From: Amycolatopsis sp. WQ 127309
GTDB lineage: Bacteria > Actinomycetota > Actinomycetes > Mycobacteriales > Pseudonocardiaceae
Length of the DNA stretch: 64,000 nt
Assembly (NCBI RefSeq): GCF_023023025.1
Contig: NZ_CP095481.1
Location: 1,550,001 to 1,614,000 of the forward strand
Reading direction: 5' to 3'
The notes under the pieces: generated by a model
Told to the model about the DNA's origin: nothing
The model's database searches: none
The model's input: the letters and a program-made list of their open reading frames with translations, nothing else
Part shown: piece by piece, positions 1,599 to 9,912 of the stretch
Numbering within the stretch: position 1 is the first letter of the stretch
Layout of the letters: every line of letters starts with the position of its first letter
Position numbers and translations under genes: made by a program

Positions 1599-2399
1599 TT
1601 AACGAACAACCCCATGGGCACGATCAAGCGCGTCCACGATCTCCTTGCGCAGCCCGGCACCGACGGCGATCGTGGCCGTGGAATCGACCGAATGCTCGCT
1701 GCCGTCGCGGTCGACGACGGCGCCGCCGGCCTCGCGCACCAGCAGCACGCCGGCCATCGTGTCCCACGGTTTGTTGGCCAGAATCAGTGCTGCGTCGAGC
1801 TTTCCGTCCGCCACCCACGCCAGGTCGATCGCCGCGCTGCCGTACATCCTGATCTTCTGCGCCCGCGCGCCGAGGTCCGAAAGGAGCAACAGCCGGGCGC
1901 GGTTCTTCTCGTCCGCGAGTTCACCGATCGCGAAGTCACCCACGGCGATCATCGCGTCCGACATCTCGGTCGCGGCGGACGCGCGGACGCGCTCCCCGTT
2001 CGCGAACGCACCTTCACCTTCCGCGGCCGTGTAGGTGACGCCCAGATAGGGCAGCGTGATCGCCGCGACCGTGCTCTGCGTGCCGTCCACCAGCGCCAGG
2101 GAAATCCCGCACAGTGGAATCCCGCGGGCGAAGTTCGCGGTCCCGTCGATCGGGTCGAGCGCCCACCAGCGATCACCGCCGTCGCCGCTGTGCCCGCGCT
2201 CCTCGCCGAGGACGCCGATCTCCGGCGTCTCGGCGGCGAGGAACTCGCGCAGCGCGTCCTCGACCGCGGTGTCGACGTCGGTCACCAGGTCGCGATCACC
2301 TTTCGCGGAAACGGAAAAACTCGGGCGCGACCGGATGATCGCGGTCGCTTTCGCCACGGCTTCGCGCGCGACGTCCAGCAGTGCGGCATGCTCGCTCAT
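1599..2399 (-). CDS. Inositol monophosphatase family phosphatase
   Basis: This 266-residue protein has the usual IMPase length. It carries the metal-binding signatures GEE (LGEERGHSG), the WALDPIDGTANF motif and the C-terminal WDTMAGVLLVREAGG motif. Family members remove phosphate from inositol-1-phosphate, histidinol phosphate, fructose-1,6-bisphosphate or PAP, using Mg2+ in the cytoplasm; the substrate cannot be chosen from sequence. ATG 2399 was taken because the conserved family N-terminus (LLDVAREAV) starts just after it. The frame stays open far upstream, but that part is antisense to the creatininase-family gene. It diverges from that gene across only 27 bases, so the two promoters must overlap. 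A link to the neighbouring pteridine cluster is possible but unproved. Confidence 0.9.
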   Translation of the reverse strand: MSEHAALLDVAREAVAKATAIIRSRPSFSVSAKGDRDLVTDVDTAVEDALREFLAAETPEIGVLGEERGHSGDGGDRWWALDPIDGTANFARGIPLCGISLALVDGTQSTVAAITLPYLGVTYTAAEGEGAFANGERVRASAATEMSDAMIAVGDFAIGELADEKNRARLLLLSDLGARAQKIRMYGSAAIDLAWVADGKLDAALILANKPWDTMAGVLLVREAGGAVVDRDGSEHSVDSTATIAVGAGLRKEIVDALDRAHGVVR

Positions 2400-2426: not shown

Positions 2427-3125
2427 ATGACCGACCTGTTCCCGCTCGCGACCACGGCCGACGAGCAGCGGCGGCGGGCGGCGGTCGCGGTGCTGCCGGT
2501 CGGCAGCTTCGAGCAGCACGGCGCGCACCTGCCGCTGGTGACGGACACCGTCATCGCCGCGACGCTGGCCAAGGCCGTCGCCGACGCCTACCCCGTGCTG
2601 CACCTGCCGCCGCTCCCGATCTCCTGCTCGCACGAGCACGCCGCGTGGCCCGGCACGGTCAGCGTCTCGGCGCGCACGCTGCACGCCGTCGTCACCGACG
2701 TCGCGGACTCGCTCGAAGCGTCCGGCGTGGACCGGCTCGTGCTGGTCAACGGGCACGGCGGCAACTACGTACTGTCCAATGTGGTCCAGGAGTCGAAAGG
2801 GTCGATGGCGCTGTTCCCCGGCGTCGCGGACTGGCAGGCCGCGCACACCGCGGCCGGCCTGCGGACGTCGCTGGACGACGACATGCACGCGGGCGAGCTG
2901 GAGACGTCGATCCTGCTGCACGCGCACCCGCACCTGGTCCGGCCCGGCTACGAGACGGCCGACCACGTCACCGACCGCGAACACCTGCTGACGCTGGGCC
3001 TGCGGGCGTACACGGAGTCGGGCGTCGTCGGCCGGCCGTCGCTGGCGACCGCGGCGAAGGGGCACGTCGTGCTGGACACGCTGGTCCAGCGCTTCGCCGC
3101 GGTGCTGGAGGTGTTAAGCGCCTGA
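2427..3125 (+). CDS. Creatininase-family amidohydrolase, candidate FAPy deformylase (ArfB-like)
   Basis: This 232-residue protein has the creatininase fold signature: Glu29 and His31 in GSFEQHGAH, Asp40 in VTDT, then VNGHGGN and the HAGELETS motif, which supply the two-metal site. The family includes creatininase, the mycofactocin protein MftE and archaeal ArfB. ArfB removes the formyl group from FAPy, the first GTP product in archaeal flavin and F420 synthesis. The convergent neighbour is a GTP cyclohydrolase II of the type expected to stop at FAPy, so deformylation is an attractive role; this is inference. The 3' end overlaps that gene by 12 bases. Codon 230 is TTA (3114-3116), a rare codon that is also the complement of the neighbour's TAA stop. 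Confidence 0.85.
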
Positions 3126-3752
3126 CAGGTGCGGGAGCAGGTGGTCCATCCGCTCGGCCTTCGTCCGGAGGTAGCGGAGGCTCTCCGGATTCGGCGGAAC
3201 CAGCAGTGGAACCAGCTCGCTGATGCGGATTCCGTAGCGGGTGAGCTGGTTGGCCTTTTCCGGGTTGTTCGACAGCAGCCGCACCGAGCGGACACCGAGG
3301 TCCTGCAGGATGCCCGCCGCCGAGTGGTAGTCGCGGGCGTCGATCGGCAGGCCGAGGGCCACGTTCGCGTCGACCGTGTCGAGGCCTTCGTCCTGCAGGC
3401 GCATCGCCTTGAGCTTGGCCAGCAGGCCGATCCCGCGGCCCTCGTGGCCCTGGACGTAGATCAGCACGCCGGCGCCCTCTTCGACGATCCGGTCCAGGGC
3501 CGCCGCCAGCTGGTCGCCGCATTCGCAGTGCGTCGAGGCGAAGACGTCCCCGGTCAGGCACTCGCTGTGGACGCGGGTGAGCGTCCCGAGCTCGGTGATC
3601 TCGCCGTGGACCAGCGCGACCTGCTCGGTGCCGGTCCGGTCGAGGTAGCCGACCGCGCGGAAGGTCCCGTGCCGCGTCGGCAGCCGGGTGTCGACCACCC
3701 GCTCGACCACGGCCCGGTGCGGCAGGTTTTCGACGGCTTCGCTTGCGGTCAT
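3114..3752 (-). CDS. GTP cyclohydrolase II homologue with Met at the catalytic Tyr position
   Basis: This 212-residue, single-domain protein has no DHBP synthase half. The zinc ligands are Cys65, Cys76 and Cys78 ([15 protein letters not shown]). GTP-binding motifs follow: GHEGRGIGL (102-110), [12 protein letters not shown] and LLSNNPEK. In normal RibA a Tyr lies in the motif RAYxLQD; here it reads KAMRLQD with Met117. From memory of published work on Streptomyces coelicolor, the paralogue SCO6655 has Met at this position and releases FAPy, the formyl-retaining intermediate, while Tyr-bearing paralogues complete the reaction. This gene is therefore probably not the housekeeping ribA. Its ATG overlaps the stop of the upstream UPF0104 gene by 4 bases, so the two are translationally coupled. 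Confidence 0.93.
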
Positions 3753-4768
3753 GACTTCAATCCCATCTCCGATTCGACAGGAACGTCGGCCGCCGTGCGC
3801 GGGGCGGGGACGGTTCCGGCGTGCGGAGCGCGGGCCAGGCGGAACCCGGCGATGCTCCGGACGAGCAGGACACCGGCGCCGGGCAGGCTCGCGACCAGCG
3901 AGAGCACGCCGTAGACGACGGCGACGGTGACACCTTGGGCGGCGCCGAGGCCGGCCGCGCCGAAGAGCAGGGCGCAGACGCCTTCGCGCGGGCCGAAGCC
4001 ACCGACGTTGAGCGGGAGACCCATCGCGAGCAGCGCGAGGATCATCAGGGGCAGCAGCTGCCCGACCGGCGCATCCACCCCGGCGACGCGGGCGGCGACG
4101 ACGAACAGGGCCAGGTGCCCGGCCAGCGTCGCGACCGACAGGAAGCCGACGGCGGGCCACGTCTCGCGGGTCAGCAGGCCCAGGCGGACGTCGGCGAGCG
4201 TGGCGGCGAAGCCGCGGCGCACCTTCGACGGGCTGTGGATCCAGCGGCCGCCGAGCGTCCGGCCGATCACCGCGGCGGCGACCGCGAGCAGCACCACGAC
4301 GACCCCGCAGAGCGTCACGACCTGGCGGAACGCGCCCGGCACGACCCCCGGCCAGGCCAGCACGACGGTGACGGCGGAGCCGATCAGGACGACCTGCCCG
4401 GCGGTGCGTTCGAGGACGACGGCGCGCACGCCGCGCGGCACGTCGCCGGACTCGCGGCCGTGCTGGACCGCGCGGTGGACGTCGCCGAGGACGCCCGCGG
4501 GCAGCACGCCGTTGAGGAACAGCGCGCGGTAGTAGTCGCCGACCGCGGTCCGCAGCGAAAGCCGCAGGCCGAGCCGGGTGGCGACGATCTGCCAGCGGCC
4601 CGCGCTGAACAGCGTCGTCGCGAAGCCGATGCCGAGCGCGGCCACCACGCCGACGGTGTCGATCCGGCCGAGGCCGTCGAGGAAGGCACCGCTGCCGAGC
4701 TGCCAGACGAGCACGGCGAGGATGCCGACGGCGCCGAGGATGCGCAGCCAGGCCAGCGCGCGCTTCAC
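3749..4768 (-). CDS. Lysylphosphatidylglycerol synthase/UPF0104-type integral membrane protein
   Basis: This 339-residue protein starts at GTG 4768 and has about eight hydrophobic helices. It carries family hallmarks [15 protein letters not shown] and [14 protein letters not shown]. It lacks the soluble C-terminal aminoacyl-transfer domain of MprF, so it corresponds only to the membrane flippase-like half. Such proteins often stand next to glycosyltransferases and are thought to move or modify lipid-linked products; the substrate here is unknown. It overlaps both neighbours by 4 bases (methyltransferase upstream, cyclohydrolase downstream). The last 35 or so residues are a hydrophilic tail. 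Membership in this operon suggests that the pathway product is membrane-bound or exported. Confidence 0.85.
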
Positions 4769-5595
4769 GCCGCCACCTCCAGGCTCGGCGGCAGGACCAG
4801 CAGGTCGCCGTGGTGGATCACCGCGTGCAGCTCGCCGGCCTGCGCCATCTCCAGCCGGCGCTGCAGGTAGACGTCGGCGGCCGGGAGCAGGTCCGGGACC
4901 TGTTCGACAGCGGCGCCGACCCAGCCGCGCAGCCACTCGGCCTGCAGTTCGGCCTGGCCGGGGCCGAGGCGCCAGGCGCTGGCCGCGCGGACCACGGTCG
5001 CGCCGAGCCGGCCGAACGCGGTCGCGGCGACGTCCAGCGCGGCCGGGCCGAGCAGGCGGCGGCCGGCGGTGATCCGGCGCTGGTGGGCGTTGAACGCGGC
5101 GGCGATCTCGTCGTCGAGCGGGTCGGCGGGCGACAGCTCGACGCGGCCGTCCACCGAGAGCATCAGCAGCGCCGCGCAGCCGGCCCCGACGATCGCGCCG
5201 GCCAGCGCCGTGACCTCGTCCTTGGTCAGCAGGTCGAGCAGCGCGGACGCGGTGACCAGCGACGTCCCGGCGAGGTCCGGCGCGCGCAACGCCGTGACGT
5301 CGCGCTGCTCGGTGACGACGTCGACGGGGCTGCCGTCGAGCGCGGTCCGCGGCAGGCCCGCCTGGGCGTGGGCGAGCAGGGCGGTGTCGCGGTCGTGCAG
5401 GATCCAGTGCTGGGTGCCGGGCAGGCGCGCGGCCAGCCAGCGGCCGAGCGAGCCGGTGCCGCAGCCGAGGTCGCGGATGACGACGTCTTCGTCTTCCGGC
5501 AGGTAGTCCCGCAGCGGTTCGAGCAGCTGGGGTGCGCGGGCCGCCGCGTCAGCGGGCTCCCGCAGGCTCAGCCACTCGGGCGAATAGGTACTCAT
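4765..5595 (-). CDS. Class I SAM-dependent methyltransferase
   Basis: This 276-residue protein has a Rossmann methyltransferase core. Motif I is [14 protein letters not shown] near residues 43-56, a likely motif II acid lies in WILHDRD, and later segments fit strands 4 and 5 ([22 protein letters not shown]). The acceptor cannot be predicted. The start ATG 5595 overlaps the glycosyltransferase stop, and its stop overlaps the GTG of the UPF0104 gene, both by 4 bases. It is thus the third gene of a tightly coupled set running from the PTPS homologue to the cyclohydrolase. Small-molecule methylation of a pteridine or sugar product fits this context, but that is inference. Confidence 0.85.
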
Positions 5596-6659
5596 GCGGC
5601 GGCCTCCTGCCGCTGCAGCACCTCGGCGATCCGGCGCGCGGTGGCGTCCCAGCCGGTCAGCGTCTCGCGGCGCAGCTGCGCCGACGTGCGCAAACGCTTG
5701 CGCAGGTCGGCTTCGGTCAGCCAGCGGCGCAGCGCGGCCCCGAGCGCTTCGACGTCGTCGCCCGGCACGAGCATCCCGGGCACCGAGCCGTCCGGCGCGA
5801 CGCCGACGGTGTCGGGCAGCGCGTCGACGTCGGTGGTCAGCACCGGCACGCCGCGGGAGAGGGCCTCGGTGACGACCATGCCGAACGTCTCGGCGCGCGA
5901 AGGCAGCACGAGCAGGTCGGCGGAGTGGTAGGTCGCGGCGAGCGCCGGGCCGGTCCGCGGGCCGGTGAGGGTGAACCGGGCGCCGAGGCGGTGCTCGCGC
6001 AGCCGCTCGACGTACTTCGTCTCCCGGCGGATCCCACCGACGCATTCGCAGGTCCAGCGCAGGTCGGCGACGGTTTCGAGGGCCTGGGCGAGCACGCCCT
6101 GGCCCTTGCGCGGGGTCACGTTGGCCACGCAGACCAGGCGCGACATGCCGTCGGTGCCGATCGACAGCGGCGCCGGGTCGACCCCGGGCGTCACGGCGTG
6201 GACGCGGTGCGGGGCCAGGCCGTGGTGGCGGATCAGCCGCCGCGCCGCCCACTCGCTGGTCGCGACGACCGAGCTCGCGGCGTGCAGCGTCTCGCGCTCC
6301 AGCGCGTCCAGCTCGGCGGCGAGCGCGGGCGGCAGGCCGGTCTCGTCGGCCAGCGGCAGGTGCACCAGGACCGACAGCGACAGGCGACGCGCCTGCGGGA
6401 CGATCACCTCGGGCACACCGCACGCGACCAGGCCGTCGAGCAGCACGGCGGACCCGGTGGGCAGCGCCGCGAGCAGGTGGCCGAGGACCGCGCGCGCCTC
6501 GGTGTCCGGCCGCGGCCAGCTGCCGCTGACGGCGATCTCGTGGACGTCGAGGCCGGCCGCGGTGAGGCCGTCGCACATCCGGCGGTCGTAGGTGTTGCCG
6601 CCGCTCGGGACGGCCGGGTCGTCGACGTCGCCGGGCAGGATGACGTAGAGGGCGTTCAC
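5592..6659 (-). CDS. GT4-family glycosyltransferase
   Basis: This 355-residue GT-B enzyme has an N-terminal acceptor domain opening with a [10 protein letters not shown] loop. The C-terminal nucleotide-sugar domain contains [29 protein letters not shown] (the E-x7-E type motif) and [14 protein letters not shown]. There is no membrane helix. It should transfer a sugar from an NDP- or GDP-sugar with retention, on the cytoplasmic side. ATG 6659 overlaps the stop of the PTPS homologue, and its own stop overlaps the methyltransferase start. Its position among pterin-type genes suggests that the cluster product is glycosylated. Confidence 0.88.
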
Positions 6660-7054
6660 AGCGCACGCTCGTAACTCGCCCAGGCGACGTGCGATTCCTT
6701 CAGCGAGACGGTGATGCCTTCGAGCCCGCGCGCGCCTTCGCCGAGGCGGCCGGCGTGGATCGCGTCGGCGAGGCGGTCGGCGACGACCTTCGCGAGGAAC
6801 TCGGTCGAGGTGTTGATGCCCTTGAACACCGGCTCGTCGTCGAGGTTGCGGTAGTTCAGGTCGCTCAGCACCGCCCCGAGCTCTTCCGTGGCCTTGCCGA
6901 TGTCGACGACGATGTTGTCCTCGTCGAGGTCGGTCCGGCGGAAGGTGGCATCCACCACGAAGGTCGCGCCGTGCAGGCGTTGCGCGGGTCCGAAGACTTC
7001 TCCGCGGAAGCTGTGGGCGACCATCACGTGGTCACGGACGGTGATGCTGAACAC
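6656..7054 (-). CDS. 6-pyruvoyl-tetrahydropterin synthase/QueD homologue with altered active site
   Basis: This 132-residue protein has the tunnelling (T-fold) pattern of PTPS/QueD. GTG 7054 was chosen because a GGAGG lies five bases upstream; TTG 7057 is possible. Compared with the family, one zinc His is kept (His14, AHSF), and so are the first His of the HGH motif (His28) and the substrate Glu (Glu120 in KESH). The second HGH histidine is Ala30, the catalytic Asp-His pair before NLD reads Asn67-Tyr68, and no active-site Cys is seen near the N-terminus. It may bind a pteridine or catalyse a different step. It is the first gene of the four coupled genes leading to the GCH II homologue. Confidence 0.82.
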
Positions 7055-7086
7055 CAAGACCTCCGATGCGTTCGGGGTGGACGTGG

Positions 7087-8043
7087 TTACTGCGGCTGAT
7101 ACATGACACGGAGGCAGCGGGCGGAAAGTTCATTCGTGGCCAACCGGGGTAACACCGACGGCAGGTCGTCAAACGCGCATTCGCCGTTGACCAGCGCCTC
7201 GAACGCCGGATCGGCCAGAAGATCGAGAGCGACGCCGAGCCGCTGCGCGTAGTCGCGGTCCGGGCGCGCGACCGTGCCGACCTGGCTGCTGCGGATCGTC
7301 AGCCGTCGCGAGTGGAAGTTCTCGCCGAGCGGCACGCTGACCTTCCGGTCGCCGTACCAGGACAGCTCGACGACCTCGCCCTCCGGCGCGAGCAGCTCCA
7401 GCGCCTTAGCGAGGCCGGCTTCGGACGCGCTCGCGTGGACGATGAGGTCGCAGTCGCCCAGCGCCGCTTCCGGTGTCGCGAAGCCGACGCCGAGTGCGTC
7501 GGCGATCTCTTTCTGCCGCGGGTCGACGTCGATGAGCTGCACGCGCGTCGCGGGGAAGCCGTTGAGCAGTTTCGCGACGCTGGCGCCGACCATCCCGGCG
7601 CCGATCACGGCGATCCGGTCACCGAGCCGCGGCCGCGCGTCCCACACGGCGTTGACCGCGGTCTCGACGGTGCCGGCGAGGATCGCGCGGCCGGGCGGGA
7701 CGTTGTCGGGCACGAGGGTCACCGCGCTCACCGGGACGACGTACGCGGTCTGGTGCGGGTAGAGGCAGAAGACGGTCTTGCCCCGGAGCTCGCCGGTTTC
7801 GACGACGCCGACGTTGAGGTAGCCGTACTTCACCGGGCCGGGGAACTCGCCGTCCTGGAACGGCGCGCGCATGACGTCGTACTGGCTCGCCGGGACGCCG
7901 CCGCGGAACACGAGGGTCTCGGTGCCGCGCGAGACGCCCGAACACAGCGTGCGCACAAGGACTTCGCCCGGTCCGGGGTCGCGCAGCGTCACGGGCCGGA
8001 TCTCGCCTTCGCCCGGCTTTTGAACCCAGAAAGCGCGTTCCAC
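7087..8043 (-). CDS. Zinc-binding dehydrogenase-like (BchC/threonine dehydrogenase-type MDR) oxidoreductase
   Basis: This 318-residue medium-chain dehydrogenase-like protein starts at GTG 8043 with AGGAG six bases upstream. The N-terminal GroES-like part has the SGVSRGTE loop known from BchC-like members. The Rossmann part has [15 protein letters not shown], with an acidic NAD-type end of strand two (LIDVDPRQ). The classical structural-zinc Cys cluster is absent. It probably oxidises or reduces an alcohol of the pathway product. It lies 32 bases upstream of the PTPS homologue on the same strand and is likely the first gene of the operon. Codon 298 is TTA (7150-7152), so bldA-type control is possible. 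Confidence 0.82.
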
Positions 8044-8089
8044 GTGTTTCTCCTAGCAGGCGACCGGAGGCTGGTGTCGCCGCCACCCT

Positions 8090-8872
8090 ATGAGCAAATT
8101 CGCGGAGCGGACGATGATCAAGCACGGACTTCTCCTACGCGCGGCGGTGCCGGCGTGGGTGCTCACCGCCGGGGCCGTCGCCGGTGGCCTCGCGCCGATC
8201 GCCTGGGCGACCGGGCTCGTGTTCGGCCTCGCGCTGGTGCTGCTGACGGGCTGGGGCCTGCGACGAACCGGCCGCGGGGGCTTCGGTCCGGCGGACTGGA
8301 TCACCTTCGCCCGGGCGACGCTCGTCGGCTCCGCCGCGGAACTGATCGCGGACGCCCACCAGCCGATCGCGTGGCTGGTCGCGCTGATCGCCGTCGCCCT
8401 GGCCCTGGACGGCGTCGACGGCCAGGTCGCCCGCCGCACCGGGACGACGTCGGAGTTCGGCGCGCGCTTCGACATGGAGGTCGACGCGTTCCTGATCCTG
8501 CTGCTGTGCGTCCAGGTGTCGGAGAAGCTCGGCCTGTGGGTGCTGGCGATCGGCCTGATGCGCTACGCGTTCGTCGCGGCGTCGTGGGCGATGCCGTGGC
8601 TGACGGCGCCGCTGTACCCGAGCATGGCCCGCAAGACGGTGGCCGCGGTCCAGGGCGTGGTCTTGGTGGTCGCGGTGTCGGAGATCCTGCCGGTGGCGTG
8701 GACGTTCGCGGCGGTGGTCTTCGCGCTGACGTCGCTGGTCTGGTCGTTCGGCCGCGACGTCGTCTGGCTGGCCCGGACGCGCGTCCAGGCGGCGAGCCCG
8801 GCCCCGATCGTGGTCCTCACCCGCCGCCTCGGCCACGGCACCGCGCTGCCGGGCCACAACCAGGCCGCTTAG
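8090..8872 (+). CDS. CDP-alcohol phosphatidyltransferase family membrane enzyme
   Basis: This 260-residue membrane protein has about six helices and a perfect family motif D-x2-DG-x2-AR-x8-G-x3-D-x3-D, with Asp107, Asp110, Asp128 and Asp132 (LDGVDGQVAR then FGARFDMEVD). Such enzymes replace CMP of a CDP-alcohol, usually CDP-diacylglycerol, with another alcohol. An ATG 24 bases downstream (8114) is an alternative start. It diverges from the dehydrogenase across 46 bases and belongs by position to the pteridine cluster. Together with the UPF0104 protein and the glycosyltransferase it suggests a lipid-attached or phospho-alcohol-linked product; that is inference. Confidence 0.85.
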   Translation: MSKFAERTMIKHGLLLRAAVPAWVLTAGAVAGGLAPIAWATGLVFGLALVLLTGWGLRRTGRGGFGPADWITFARATLVGSAAELIADAHQPIAWLVALIAVALALDGVDGQVARRTGTTSEFGARFDMEVDAFLILLLCVQVSEKLGLWVLAIGLMRYAFVAASWAMPWLTAPLYPSMARKTVAAVQGVVLVVAVSEILPVAWTFAAVVFALTSLVWSFGRDVVWLARTRVQAASPAPIVVLTRRLGHGTALPGHNQAA

Positions 8873-8955: not shown

Positions 8956-9912
8956 TCAGCCCGACTCGCGGGCGGCCTTGGCGCGGCGCTTGCCTTCGTG
9001 CATCGCGGCCACCCGGGCGACCGGGATCGTGTGGCCCTCCTCGACCAGGTCCGCCGGCAGCACGAACGGCTCCGGCATCTCCGCCGTCCACGGGTCGCCG
9101 TCGGCGAGCAGGCCCGGCGCGGTGTGGACCGTGAAGTCCGACGGCTTCACGCCGTCCAGGTCGGCCCAGCGGACCGGGAACGACACCGGCGCGCCCGGGC
9201 GGTTGCGGGGGCTGTAGACGCAGACGACCGTGCCGCCGCCGGAGCGGGTCGAGTCCAGGAAGACCTTGCCGTCACGGCGGTCCTTGACGAACTCCGTCGT
9301 GCCGCGCGCGGGGTCGATGCGCTCAGCGCGGGCCGCCACCGCCCGCGTGGCCGCCGCGATGTCTTCGGTCGACTGGCCCGGGGCGAGCGGGACGAAGACG
9401 TGCAGCCCCTTCGAACCACTGGTCTTGACGGCGCCGTCGAGGCCGTCGGCCTGCAGCGCCTCGCGCACCAGCTTCGCGGCGTCGATCGCCAGCGTGAACG
9501 GGCCTTCCTCCGGCGGGTCGAGGTCGAGGACGAGGTGCGTCGGCCCGGTCGTGGGCTCGCCGCGGAAGAGCGTCACGTGGTACTCGATCGCCCGCTGGTT
9601 GCCGAACCAGATCAGCGTGCGCAGGTCGTTGCCGAGCGCGTAGATGACTTCGCGGCGCGAGCGGTCGGCCCACAGCGGCATCCGCTCGACCCAGTCCGGC
9701 GTGTACTTCGGCAGGTTCTTCTGCATGAACGGCCCCTGGCCGCGCAGCACCCGCACCACCGACAACGGCCGGTCGCGCAGCTCCGGCACCATCCGGTCGG
9801 CGACCGCTTCGAGGTAGTCGAGCATCTCGCGCTTGGTGGCCCCCGCACCGGGGAAGACCTCCTGGTCGAGACTGCTCAGCTTCACGCCGTGACGGAGCTC
9901 ATCGCTGCTCAT
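8956..9912 (-). CDS. LigD-type polymerase/primase domain protein (NHEJ-associated)
   Basis: This 318-residue stand-alone PolDom of the archaeo-eukaryotic primase superfamily has the catalytic acid pair Asp130/Asp132 in LVLDLDP, then KTSGSKGLHVFVPL and the C-terminal GVKPSDFTV region. No ATP ligase or phosphoesterase domain is attached, so this is the separate polymerase form that works with Ku and a ligase in non-homologous end joining. In such systems the protein adds NTPs or dNTPs and fills gaps at broken ends. No Ku or ligase gene is in the window. Convergent to the phosphatidyltransferase gene, with a palindrome between them. Confidence 0.92.
   Translation of the reverse strand: MSSDELRHGVKLSSLDQEVFPGAGATKREMLDYLEAVADRMVPELRDRPLSVVRVLRGQGPFMQKNLPKYTPDWVERMPLWADRSRREVIYALGNDLRTLIWFGNQRAIEYHVTLFRGEPTTGPTHLVLDLDPPEEGPFTLAIDAAKLVREALQADGLDGAVKTSGSKGLHVFVPLAPGQSTEDIAAATRAVAARAERIDPARGTTEFVKDRRDGKVFLDSTRSGGGTVVCVYSPRNRPGAPVSFPVRWADLDGVKPSDFTVHTAPGLLADGDPWTAEMPEPFVLPADLVEEGHTIPVARVAAMHEGKRRAKAARESG

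Follow-up and report, generated by a model that had tools for sequence, protein, structure and literature searches.

What does Amycolatopsis sp. WQ 127309 make with a paralogue of GTP cyclohydrolase II (GCHII) that is encoded among genes for a creatininase-family hydrolase, a PTPS-IV protein and enzymes of glycosyl, methyl and phosphatidyl transfer? The genes lie at 2427-8872 of a 64,000-nucleotide stretch of the genome (contig NZ_CP095481.1, positions 1,550,001 to 1,614,000, forward strand; hereafter, the window), and a reading of the sequence alone had proposed that eight of them form a pteridine-type cluster starting from GTP. Gene calls and Pfam searches recover all eight in place, and gene content and conservation support the view that the cluster is conserved, starts from GTP and includes genes of glycosyl, methyl and phosphatidyl transfer. 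The pteridine-type label stands insofar as the cluster is conserved and GTP-derived, but not as a flavin-independent route: the opening chemistry looks riboflavin-type: relatives encode a RibD-type reductase, and the GCHII-creatininase pair suggests the formamidopyrimidine (FAPy), diaminopyrimidine and ribityl chemistry of (archaeal) riboflavin and F420 synthesis. Overall, we give a probability of about 50% to a dedicated branch from GTP that would work like the opening of archaeal riboflavin and F420 synthesis, followed by formation of a pterin-type bicycle, its tailoring, coupling to a lipid and transport.

Conservation of the cluster and its PTPS-IV protein

When GTDB genomes were scanned with the window PTPS, at least 500 relatives came to light, of which the best 80, all actinobacterial, were kept, and plasmid records gave further relatives (twelve inspected) from Rhizobium, Agrobacterium, Neorhizobium, Peteryoungia, Palleronia, Methylosinus, Thiodictyon, Microbacterium and others. 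The genus labels of the sampled genomes, marked "-like" below, derive from the nearest named dehydrogenase sequences or from the GCHII tree. The dehydrogenase and PTPS genes, usually together with the GT4 glycosyltransferase gene (not seen beside them in locus L040), co-occur in Actinomycetes, Alphaproteobacteria and Gammaproteobacteria, a recurrence which argues that the grouping is not due to chance. The sequence-only reading had staked its case on such conservation, which these lineages provide. Gene content was counted in 91 loci that contain PTPS and the dehydrogenase and have flanks of 7 kb or more to each side; 88 of them encode GT4, 78 the methyltransferase, 74 the CDP-alcohol phosphatidyltransferase, 73 the UPF0104 protein and 14 the phosphatase. 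As marked by PTPS, the cluster is represented in 91 of the 199 sampled Streptomyces-like genomes and in 72 of the 80 Amycolatopsis-like ones. A protein-database search with the dehydrogenase found close relatives, the nearest named ones from Amycolatopsis, and no fusion to another pathway domain among the best 120 of 8000 matches; carriage by viruses was also sought, and none of the 18 viral-contig stretches that matched the search pattern encoded a relative. The cluster is a genuine, widely conserved orphan pathway that has been partly glimpsed before.

The nearest solved structure to the window PTPS is 3d7j, "Uncharacterized protein SCO6650" (E=6e-69), so that the parallel with Streptomyces coelicolor SCO6650-SCO6655 drawn in the sequence-only reading stands for this protein. 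The study of 3d7j reportedly found no zinc, no PTPS activity and a pocket compatible with pterins. In an alignment of 20 sequences, the window PTPS keeps His15, His29 and Glu121, has Ala31 in place of the third zinc histidine and lacks the catalytic cysteine, while a glutamate near the C terminus is invariant. The motif FGPAQxLHGA is found in 93 of the 130 PTPS sequences of cluster loci, and most of the others carry close variants or, in a divergent group, FGPAxxxHGH; the catalytic cysteine is missing from both motif groups and the third zinc histidine from the FGPAQxLHGA group. The window protein has FGPAQ at residues 22-26, the signature of the PTPS-IV subfamily of COG0720, and PF00925 and PF01872 have previously been noted near a cluster of 561 PTPS-IV-type sequences (PMC5445326). 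This neighbourhood of GCHII and RibD_C is reproduced here, with GCHII in the window and RibD_C inside the cluster in relatives and unlinked in the host genome. PTPS-IV has been called an F420 enzyme on unpublished grounds (PMC5041015); the passages on PTPS-IV in these two papers leave its function unsettled and contain no residue pairing or pathway, and the word creatininase is absent from both main texts. SCO6652 is listed in an expression table (PMC3610822). A literature search, with most subscription journals outside its scope, found no paper on the function or product of an SCO6650-SCO6655-type cluster, and likewise no prior report of the GCHII-creatininase pairing or the alternating RibD reductases, which appear to be new here. 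An assignment to QueD (6-carboxytetrahydropterin synthase) was rejected given that the CxxxHGH motif is replaced by AQRLHGA in the window protein and the QueD model scores 34.8 bits against a cut-off of 89.25; a cluster for queuosine or another preQ0-type 7-deazapurine fails on motif and cut-offs, and no homologues of GTP cyclohydrolase I (GCHI), QueE or QueC are found among the nine genes of Table 1. A PTPS-IV copy with the motif FGSAQ occurs on a Streptomyces plasmid (L207), where 18 kb of sequence held none of the remaining cluster genes; a MEKHLA-domain gene adjoins it (L207:9001-9911).

A divergent actinobacterial family of loci contains RibD, dehydrogenase, PTPS and GT4 genes in this order, plus GCHII in L131. 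In all 14 loci of the family (L123-L136), a homologue of FolB (dihydroneopterin aldolase) is encoded beside RibD or, in L131, beside the adjoining GCHII. Among eight annotated proteobacterial clusters inspected, four encode a cytochrome b561 (L035, L037, L041 and L206). Histidine-kinase genes lie downstream of two rhizobial clusters (L205:11537-14543 and L206:16658-18292).

Pairing of GCHII with a creatininase-family hydrolase

The host genome, a single contig of 11.13 Mb, encodes three GCHIIs. In the alignment, the window paralogue keeps the zinc Cys and the catalytic Arg and has Met117 at the position of Tyr105 of Escherichia coli RibA; the other two keep the tyrosine. A residue other than tyrosine at this position is the mark of a FAPy-forming GCHII. 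SCO6655, which presumably also has methionine there, reportedly forms FAPy (Spoonamore and Bandarian), and formation of FAPy is predicted for the window protein.

The identity of this residue goes together with the presence of the creatininase. The comparison covered 114 loci in which PTPS is flanked by 6.5 kb or more to each side, without near-identical pairs. All 76 GCHIIs accompanied by a creatininase lack the tyrosine (66 Met, 9 His, 1 Gln), all 11 without creatininase keep it, and 26 loci have neither gene. A linked RibD match is present in all 11 loci with a Tyr-type GCHII. Across the Streptomyces-like genomes, FAPy-type GCHII (E<=1e-75) and cluster-type creatininase (E<=1e-30, after removal of 14 distant ones) share one identical set of 90 of the 199 genomes; G377 and G462 are PTPS-positive with neither gene, and the fragmented assembly G391 contains the two genes and no PTPS match. 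This pairing fits a GCHII that would stop at FAPy and a creatininase that would deformylate it.

The creatininase family includes the model of the archaeal FAPy deformylase ArfB (NF033501), which matches the window protein weakly (E=7e-8, 32.5 bits against a cut-off of 180); despite this score, its function may be that of ArfB. Among NCBIfam models, MftE (TIGR03964) comes closest, with 137.3 bits against a cut-off of 172. A role in mycofactocin synthesis was rejected on this score and for want of any mft model among the nine genes.

In the GCHII tree, the creatininase-linked sequences form one clade (support 98/94), so that the pairing is one evolutionary event and counts once; on this evidence, it probably arose a single time and was kept through the divergence from Met to His. 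A second origin was sought through the 14 distant, unlinked creatininases (L175-L188), with no GCHII in the sampled stretches. Clustering of the frames of these loci gave one component of 28 frames that spans all 14 and includes, among those listed, the creatininase and an adjacent frame; the frame adjoining the L176 creatininase has weak TPR matches.

RibD-type reductases inside and outside the cluster

Many relatives of the window cluster contain a linked RibD_C gene; the host genome has 23 RibD_C genes, all of them away from the cluster. No RibB, RibH or lumazine/riboflavin synthase gene was detected by Pfam among the nine genes and five scanned neighbours. The earlier statement that no flavin genes are near is thus borne out for the host, and fails for those relatives with a RibD-family reductase in the cluster. 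The host genome encodes a fusion of RibD_C with a deaminase (C1:190481-191596), 1.36 Mb from the cluster, the reductase half of which is 55% identical to the RibD inside the cluster of G204 (L138). Among the Streptomyces-like genomes, the fusion is found at E<=1e-85 in 69 of the 91 PTPS-positive and 7 of the 108 PTPS-negative genomes (Fisher p ~1e-25), and at E<=1e-40 in 75 and 31, respectively (p ~1e-14), both p values ignoring the relatedness of the genomes; six PTPS-positive genomes have a weaker or partial match only. At E<=1e-40 the fusion is missing from 16 PTPS-positive genomes, of which 14 (14 of the 15 readable) encode a RibD_C of another type within the cluster, between UPF0104 and creatininase (on a second contig in G437). 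The assembly of G296, 79% complete, breaks at this position and is unreadable. An in-cluster RibD is present in none of four fusion-positive controls. The 80 Amycolatopsis-like genomes show a similar association (both PTPS and RibD in 71, PTPS only in 1, RibD only in 5, neither in 3; p=0.0026), and in four of them (G487, G497, G556 and G565) the only RibD match lies within ~7 kb of PTPS. This complementarity suggests that a RibD-type reductase, unlinked in the host genome, belongs to the pathway. For this argument it is enough that one or another RibD_C reductase be available, even if the fusion also serves riboflavin synthesis. In three Streptomyces-like genomes (L166-L168), an unlinked RibD fusion lies within the same 20 kb as an L138-like GCHII.

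The in-cluster RibD type is closer to the RibD of the Palleronia cluster (38-41% identity, E 1e-47 to 1e-51) than to the host fusion, which matches L117 at 35% over 201 residues (E ~1e-16), L111 over 101 residues and L101 not at all at 1e-5. The nearest structures to the Rhizobium cluster RibD (L041) are 6p8c, named as a reductase of 2,5-diamino-6-ribosylamino-4(3H)-pyrimidinone 5'-phosphate (APy), and then 2azn, named as a putative 5-amino-6-(5-phosphoribosylamino)uracil reductase. For the reductase half of the fusion, the nearest is 5xux, "Conserved protein", which we take to be archaeal Rib7. A deaminase domain is absent from all five cluster-linked RibD proteins scanned, and therefore the 2-amino group is probably kept, which suggests a 2-amino-4-oxo, pterin-like product.

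A proposed pathway and its alternatives

These observations can be arranged into a route in which the chemical steps are our inference, with the least certainty for the later ones. The GCHII, having no equivalent of Tyr105, would open GTP and halt at FAPy, which the creatininase would deformylate to APy. Reduction of the ribosyl to a ribityl chain would then fall to a RibD_C reductase, which some species encode within the cluster and the host at an unlinked place. Entry via APy is supported because loci have, interchangeably, a Tyr-type GCHII, the FAPy-type pair or neither; a supply of APy from the riboflavin GCHII would account for the 26 loci that lack both genes. Conversion of the 2-amino-4-oxo pyrimidine into a pterin-type bicycle may be the work of the BchC-like dehydrogenase together with PTPS-IV, a zinc-less T-fold protein, and a pteridine is a plausible end product. 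The phosphatase, GT4 and methyltransferase would tailor the bicycle, with the glycosylation possibly before or after the methylation; the CDP-alcohol phosphatidyltransferase would join the bicycle, or a glycoside of it, to a lipid that UPF0104 would carry over the membrane. The phosphatase is probably that of the pathway: apart from its presence in the conserved neighbourhood, it is annotated in the alphaproteobacterial cluster L204, and the Palleronia cluster encodes a homologue with 37.5% identity. The motif of CDP-alcohol phosphatidyltransferases, DGx2ARx8Gx3Dx3D, is intact in the window protein. Of the 89 cluster homologues, 86 have it and the other three come from short loci; this motif, UPF0104 and the cytochrome b561 of the proteobacterial clusters point to a possible membrane attachment of the product.

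The proposed opening resembles the archaeal ArfA-ArfB-ArfC route to riboflavin and F420 in its FAPy intermediate, creatininase-fold deformylase and stand-alone reductase. It differs in that the window employs GCHII rather than the ArfA family, the creatininase is far under the ArfB cut-off and the downstream genes are not the same. Glycosylation of a pterin by a GT4-type enzyme would be analogous to the pterin glycosides of cyanobacteria and green sulfur bacteria. Synthesis of the latter begins with GCHI and a zinc PTPS, whereas the window has GCHII and a PTPS-IV without one zinc histidine.

Several observations weigh against the proposed route. Apart from the single origin of the pairing, one of the 114 loci (L087) has a creatininase without a nearby GCHII, and the creatininases of L175-L188, from 14 Streptomyces-like genomes and 52-62% identical, have neither GCHII nor PTPS in the sampled stretch, so that the subfamily has another use. 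The host fusion may be the riboflavin enzyme: it is the only deaminase-fused locus among 12 examined of the 23 host RibD_C loci, with a separate deaminase-like frame near RibD_C in L200. The fusion also occurs without PTPS in 31 of 108 genomes at E<=1e-40. G418, a 780-contig draft with UPF0104, creatininase and GCHII in a row (L210), has neither the fusion at E<=1e-40 nor an in-cluster RibD. The dehydrogenase lacks the conserved catalytic zinc ligands in an alignment of 25 sequences and could be a reductase; the BchC model (TIGR01202) scores 47.7 bits against a cut-off of 291. Lipid attachment is not universal, as no methyltransferase, CDP-alcohol or UPF0104 gene could be detected in the loci of the divergent actinobacteria. 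Finally, GCHI is present in 18 of the 19 divergent-family genomes with a PTPS match, which argues against a simple dihydroneopterin product and leaves the idea of a folate substitute, with the cluster replacing GCHI, unsupported.

Were the loss of the tyrosine incidental, the creatininase could act on another substrate, for example, an amide or peptide, as might be expected from its nearest model, the peptide-processing MftE, from its relatives in other contexts and from the single origin of the pairing; the presence of the creatininase in all 76 non-Tyr loci and none of the 11 Tyr loci, the repeated joint absence and the identical genome sets make this unlikely. We similarly doubt that the cluster is one for a glycophospholipid, made by the CDP-alcohol enzyme, GT4, methyltransferase and UPF0104, with the GTP-derived compound as a separate cofactor of the same membrane process. 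The GT4 is most MshA-like among NCBIfam models, its solved relatives include 6kih and, further down, MshA and PimA, and the cytochrome b561 suggests membrane redox; in the divergent loci, however, the GTP-derived core and GT4 are retained, and lipid genes were not detected.

A slightly weaker case is that of a second, differently regulated supply of riboflavin or F420 precursors among unrelated tailoring genes. The GCHII and RibD parts are of riboflavin type, and SCO6655 and SCO2687 are both tabled as anticorrelated with predicted flux, in a table most genes of which are up in stationary phase (PMC2853524). Yet lumazine and riboflavin synthases are missing from the genes scanned, the tailoring genes recur in most of the 91 loci, and the PTPS-IV passages of PMC5041015 and PMC5445326 assign it no riboflavin role. 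In another alternative, RibD could reduce C1' of the ribosylamine and the dehydrogenase oxidise the C2' hydroxyl to a ketone, whereupon PTPS-IV would close the ring from the 5-amino group and the ketone, yielding a dihydroneopterin-type pterin monophosphate without GCHI that is later glycosylated and lipid-linked. Such a split Amadori step, improbable as we judge it, accounts for the RibD-dehydrogenase-PTPS core, the gene order in the divergent actinobacteria and their FolB homologues; with GCHI in nearly all of these genomes, a second route to dihydroneopterin looks redundant, and FolB could be a folate neighbour kept in one family. Its full form is a longer shot: a GCHI-free bacterial pterin pathway in which C1' reduction and C2' oxidation replace the Amadori step and a zinc-less T-fold closes the ring, ending in a glycosylated pterin phospholipid joined by the CDP-alcohol enzyme. 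If true, this pterin lipid would be a new class and could be a membrane redox or light-sensing cofactor.

The arrangement of the genes (Table 1) agrees with the operon suggested by the sequence-only reading from four-base overlaps of five leftward genes: the four junctions from GCHII through UPF0104, methyltransferase and GT4 to PTPS each overlap by exactly 4 bases. The dehydrogenase gene ends 29 bases before the start of PTPS, the creatininase gene is convergent with GCHII (12-base overlap) and the CDP-alcohol gene is divergent from the dehydrogenase gene. The UPF0104 protein has ~8 hydrophobic segments in a hydropathy plot, and the methyltransferase has no match in a scan of NCBIfam profiles. 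A second GT4, 52% identical to that of the window, is encoded just outside it (G000:C1:1548819-1549976, equal to L191:12820-13977, minus strand); this gene also occurs in other Amycolatopsis loci, and a protein-kinase gene lies between it and the phosphatase gene. An ordinary gene with a LigD primase-polymerase domain (8956-9912) adjoins the cluster.

Table 1. Genes of the cluster, with positions in the window
Product	Position	Strand	Profile match
Inositol-monophosphatase-family phosphatase	1599-2399	-	PF00459 E=7e-55
Creatininase-family hydrolase, proposed FAPy deformylase	2427-3125	+	PF02633 E=8e-64
GCHII paralogue	3114-3752	-	PF00925 E=2e-63
UPF0104 / LPG_synthase_TM flippase-like membrane protein	3749-4768	-	PF03706 E=3e-30
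Class I S-adenosylmethionine-dependent methyltransferase, no named family	4765-5595	-	PF13649 E=1.6e-6
GT4 glycosyltransferase	5592-6659	-	PF13692/PF00534
PTPS-IV protein, TTG start	6656-7057	-	PF01242 E=7e-22
BchC-like medium-chain dehydrogenase/reductase	7087-8043	-	TIGR01202 BchC E=1e-12, below cut-off
CDP-alcohol phosphatidyltransferase	8090-8872	+	PF01066 E=3e-14

A FAPy-halting GCHII, as reported for SCO6655, has so far been an enzyme without a purpose, and the pairing proposes one, namely, that the neighbouring creatininase completes the step. The RibD-type reductase is easily missed since it is often unlinked; together, the pairing and the alternating RibDs make the early chemistry directly testable. 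The cluster appears to be common to many soil bacteria, which would convert GTP into a sugar-decorated, possibly membrane-attached relative of the pterins, and if the product is indeed a lipid-linked pterin, it would represent a new kind of bacterial lipid.

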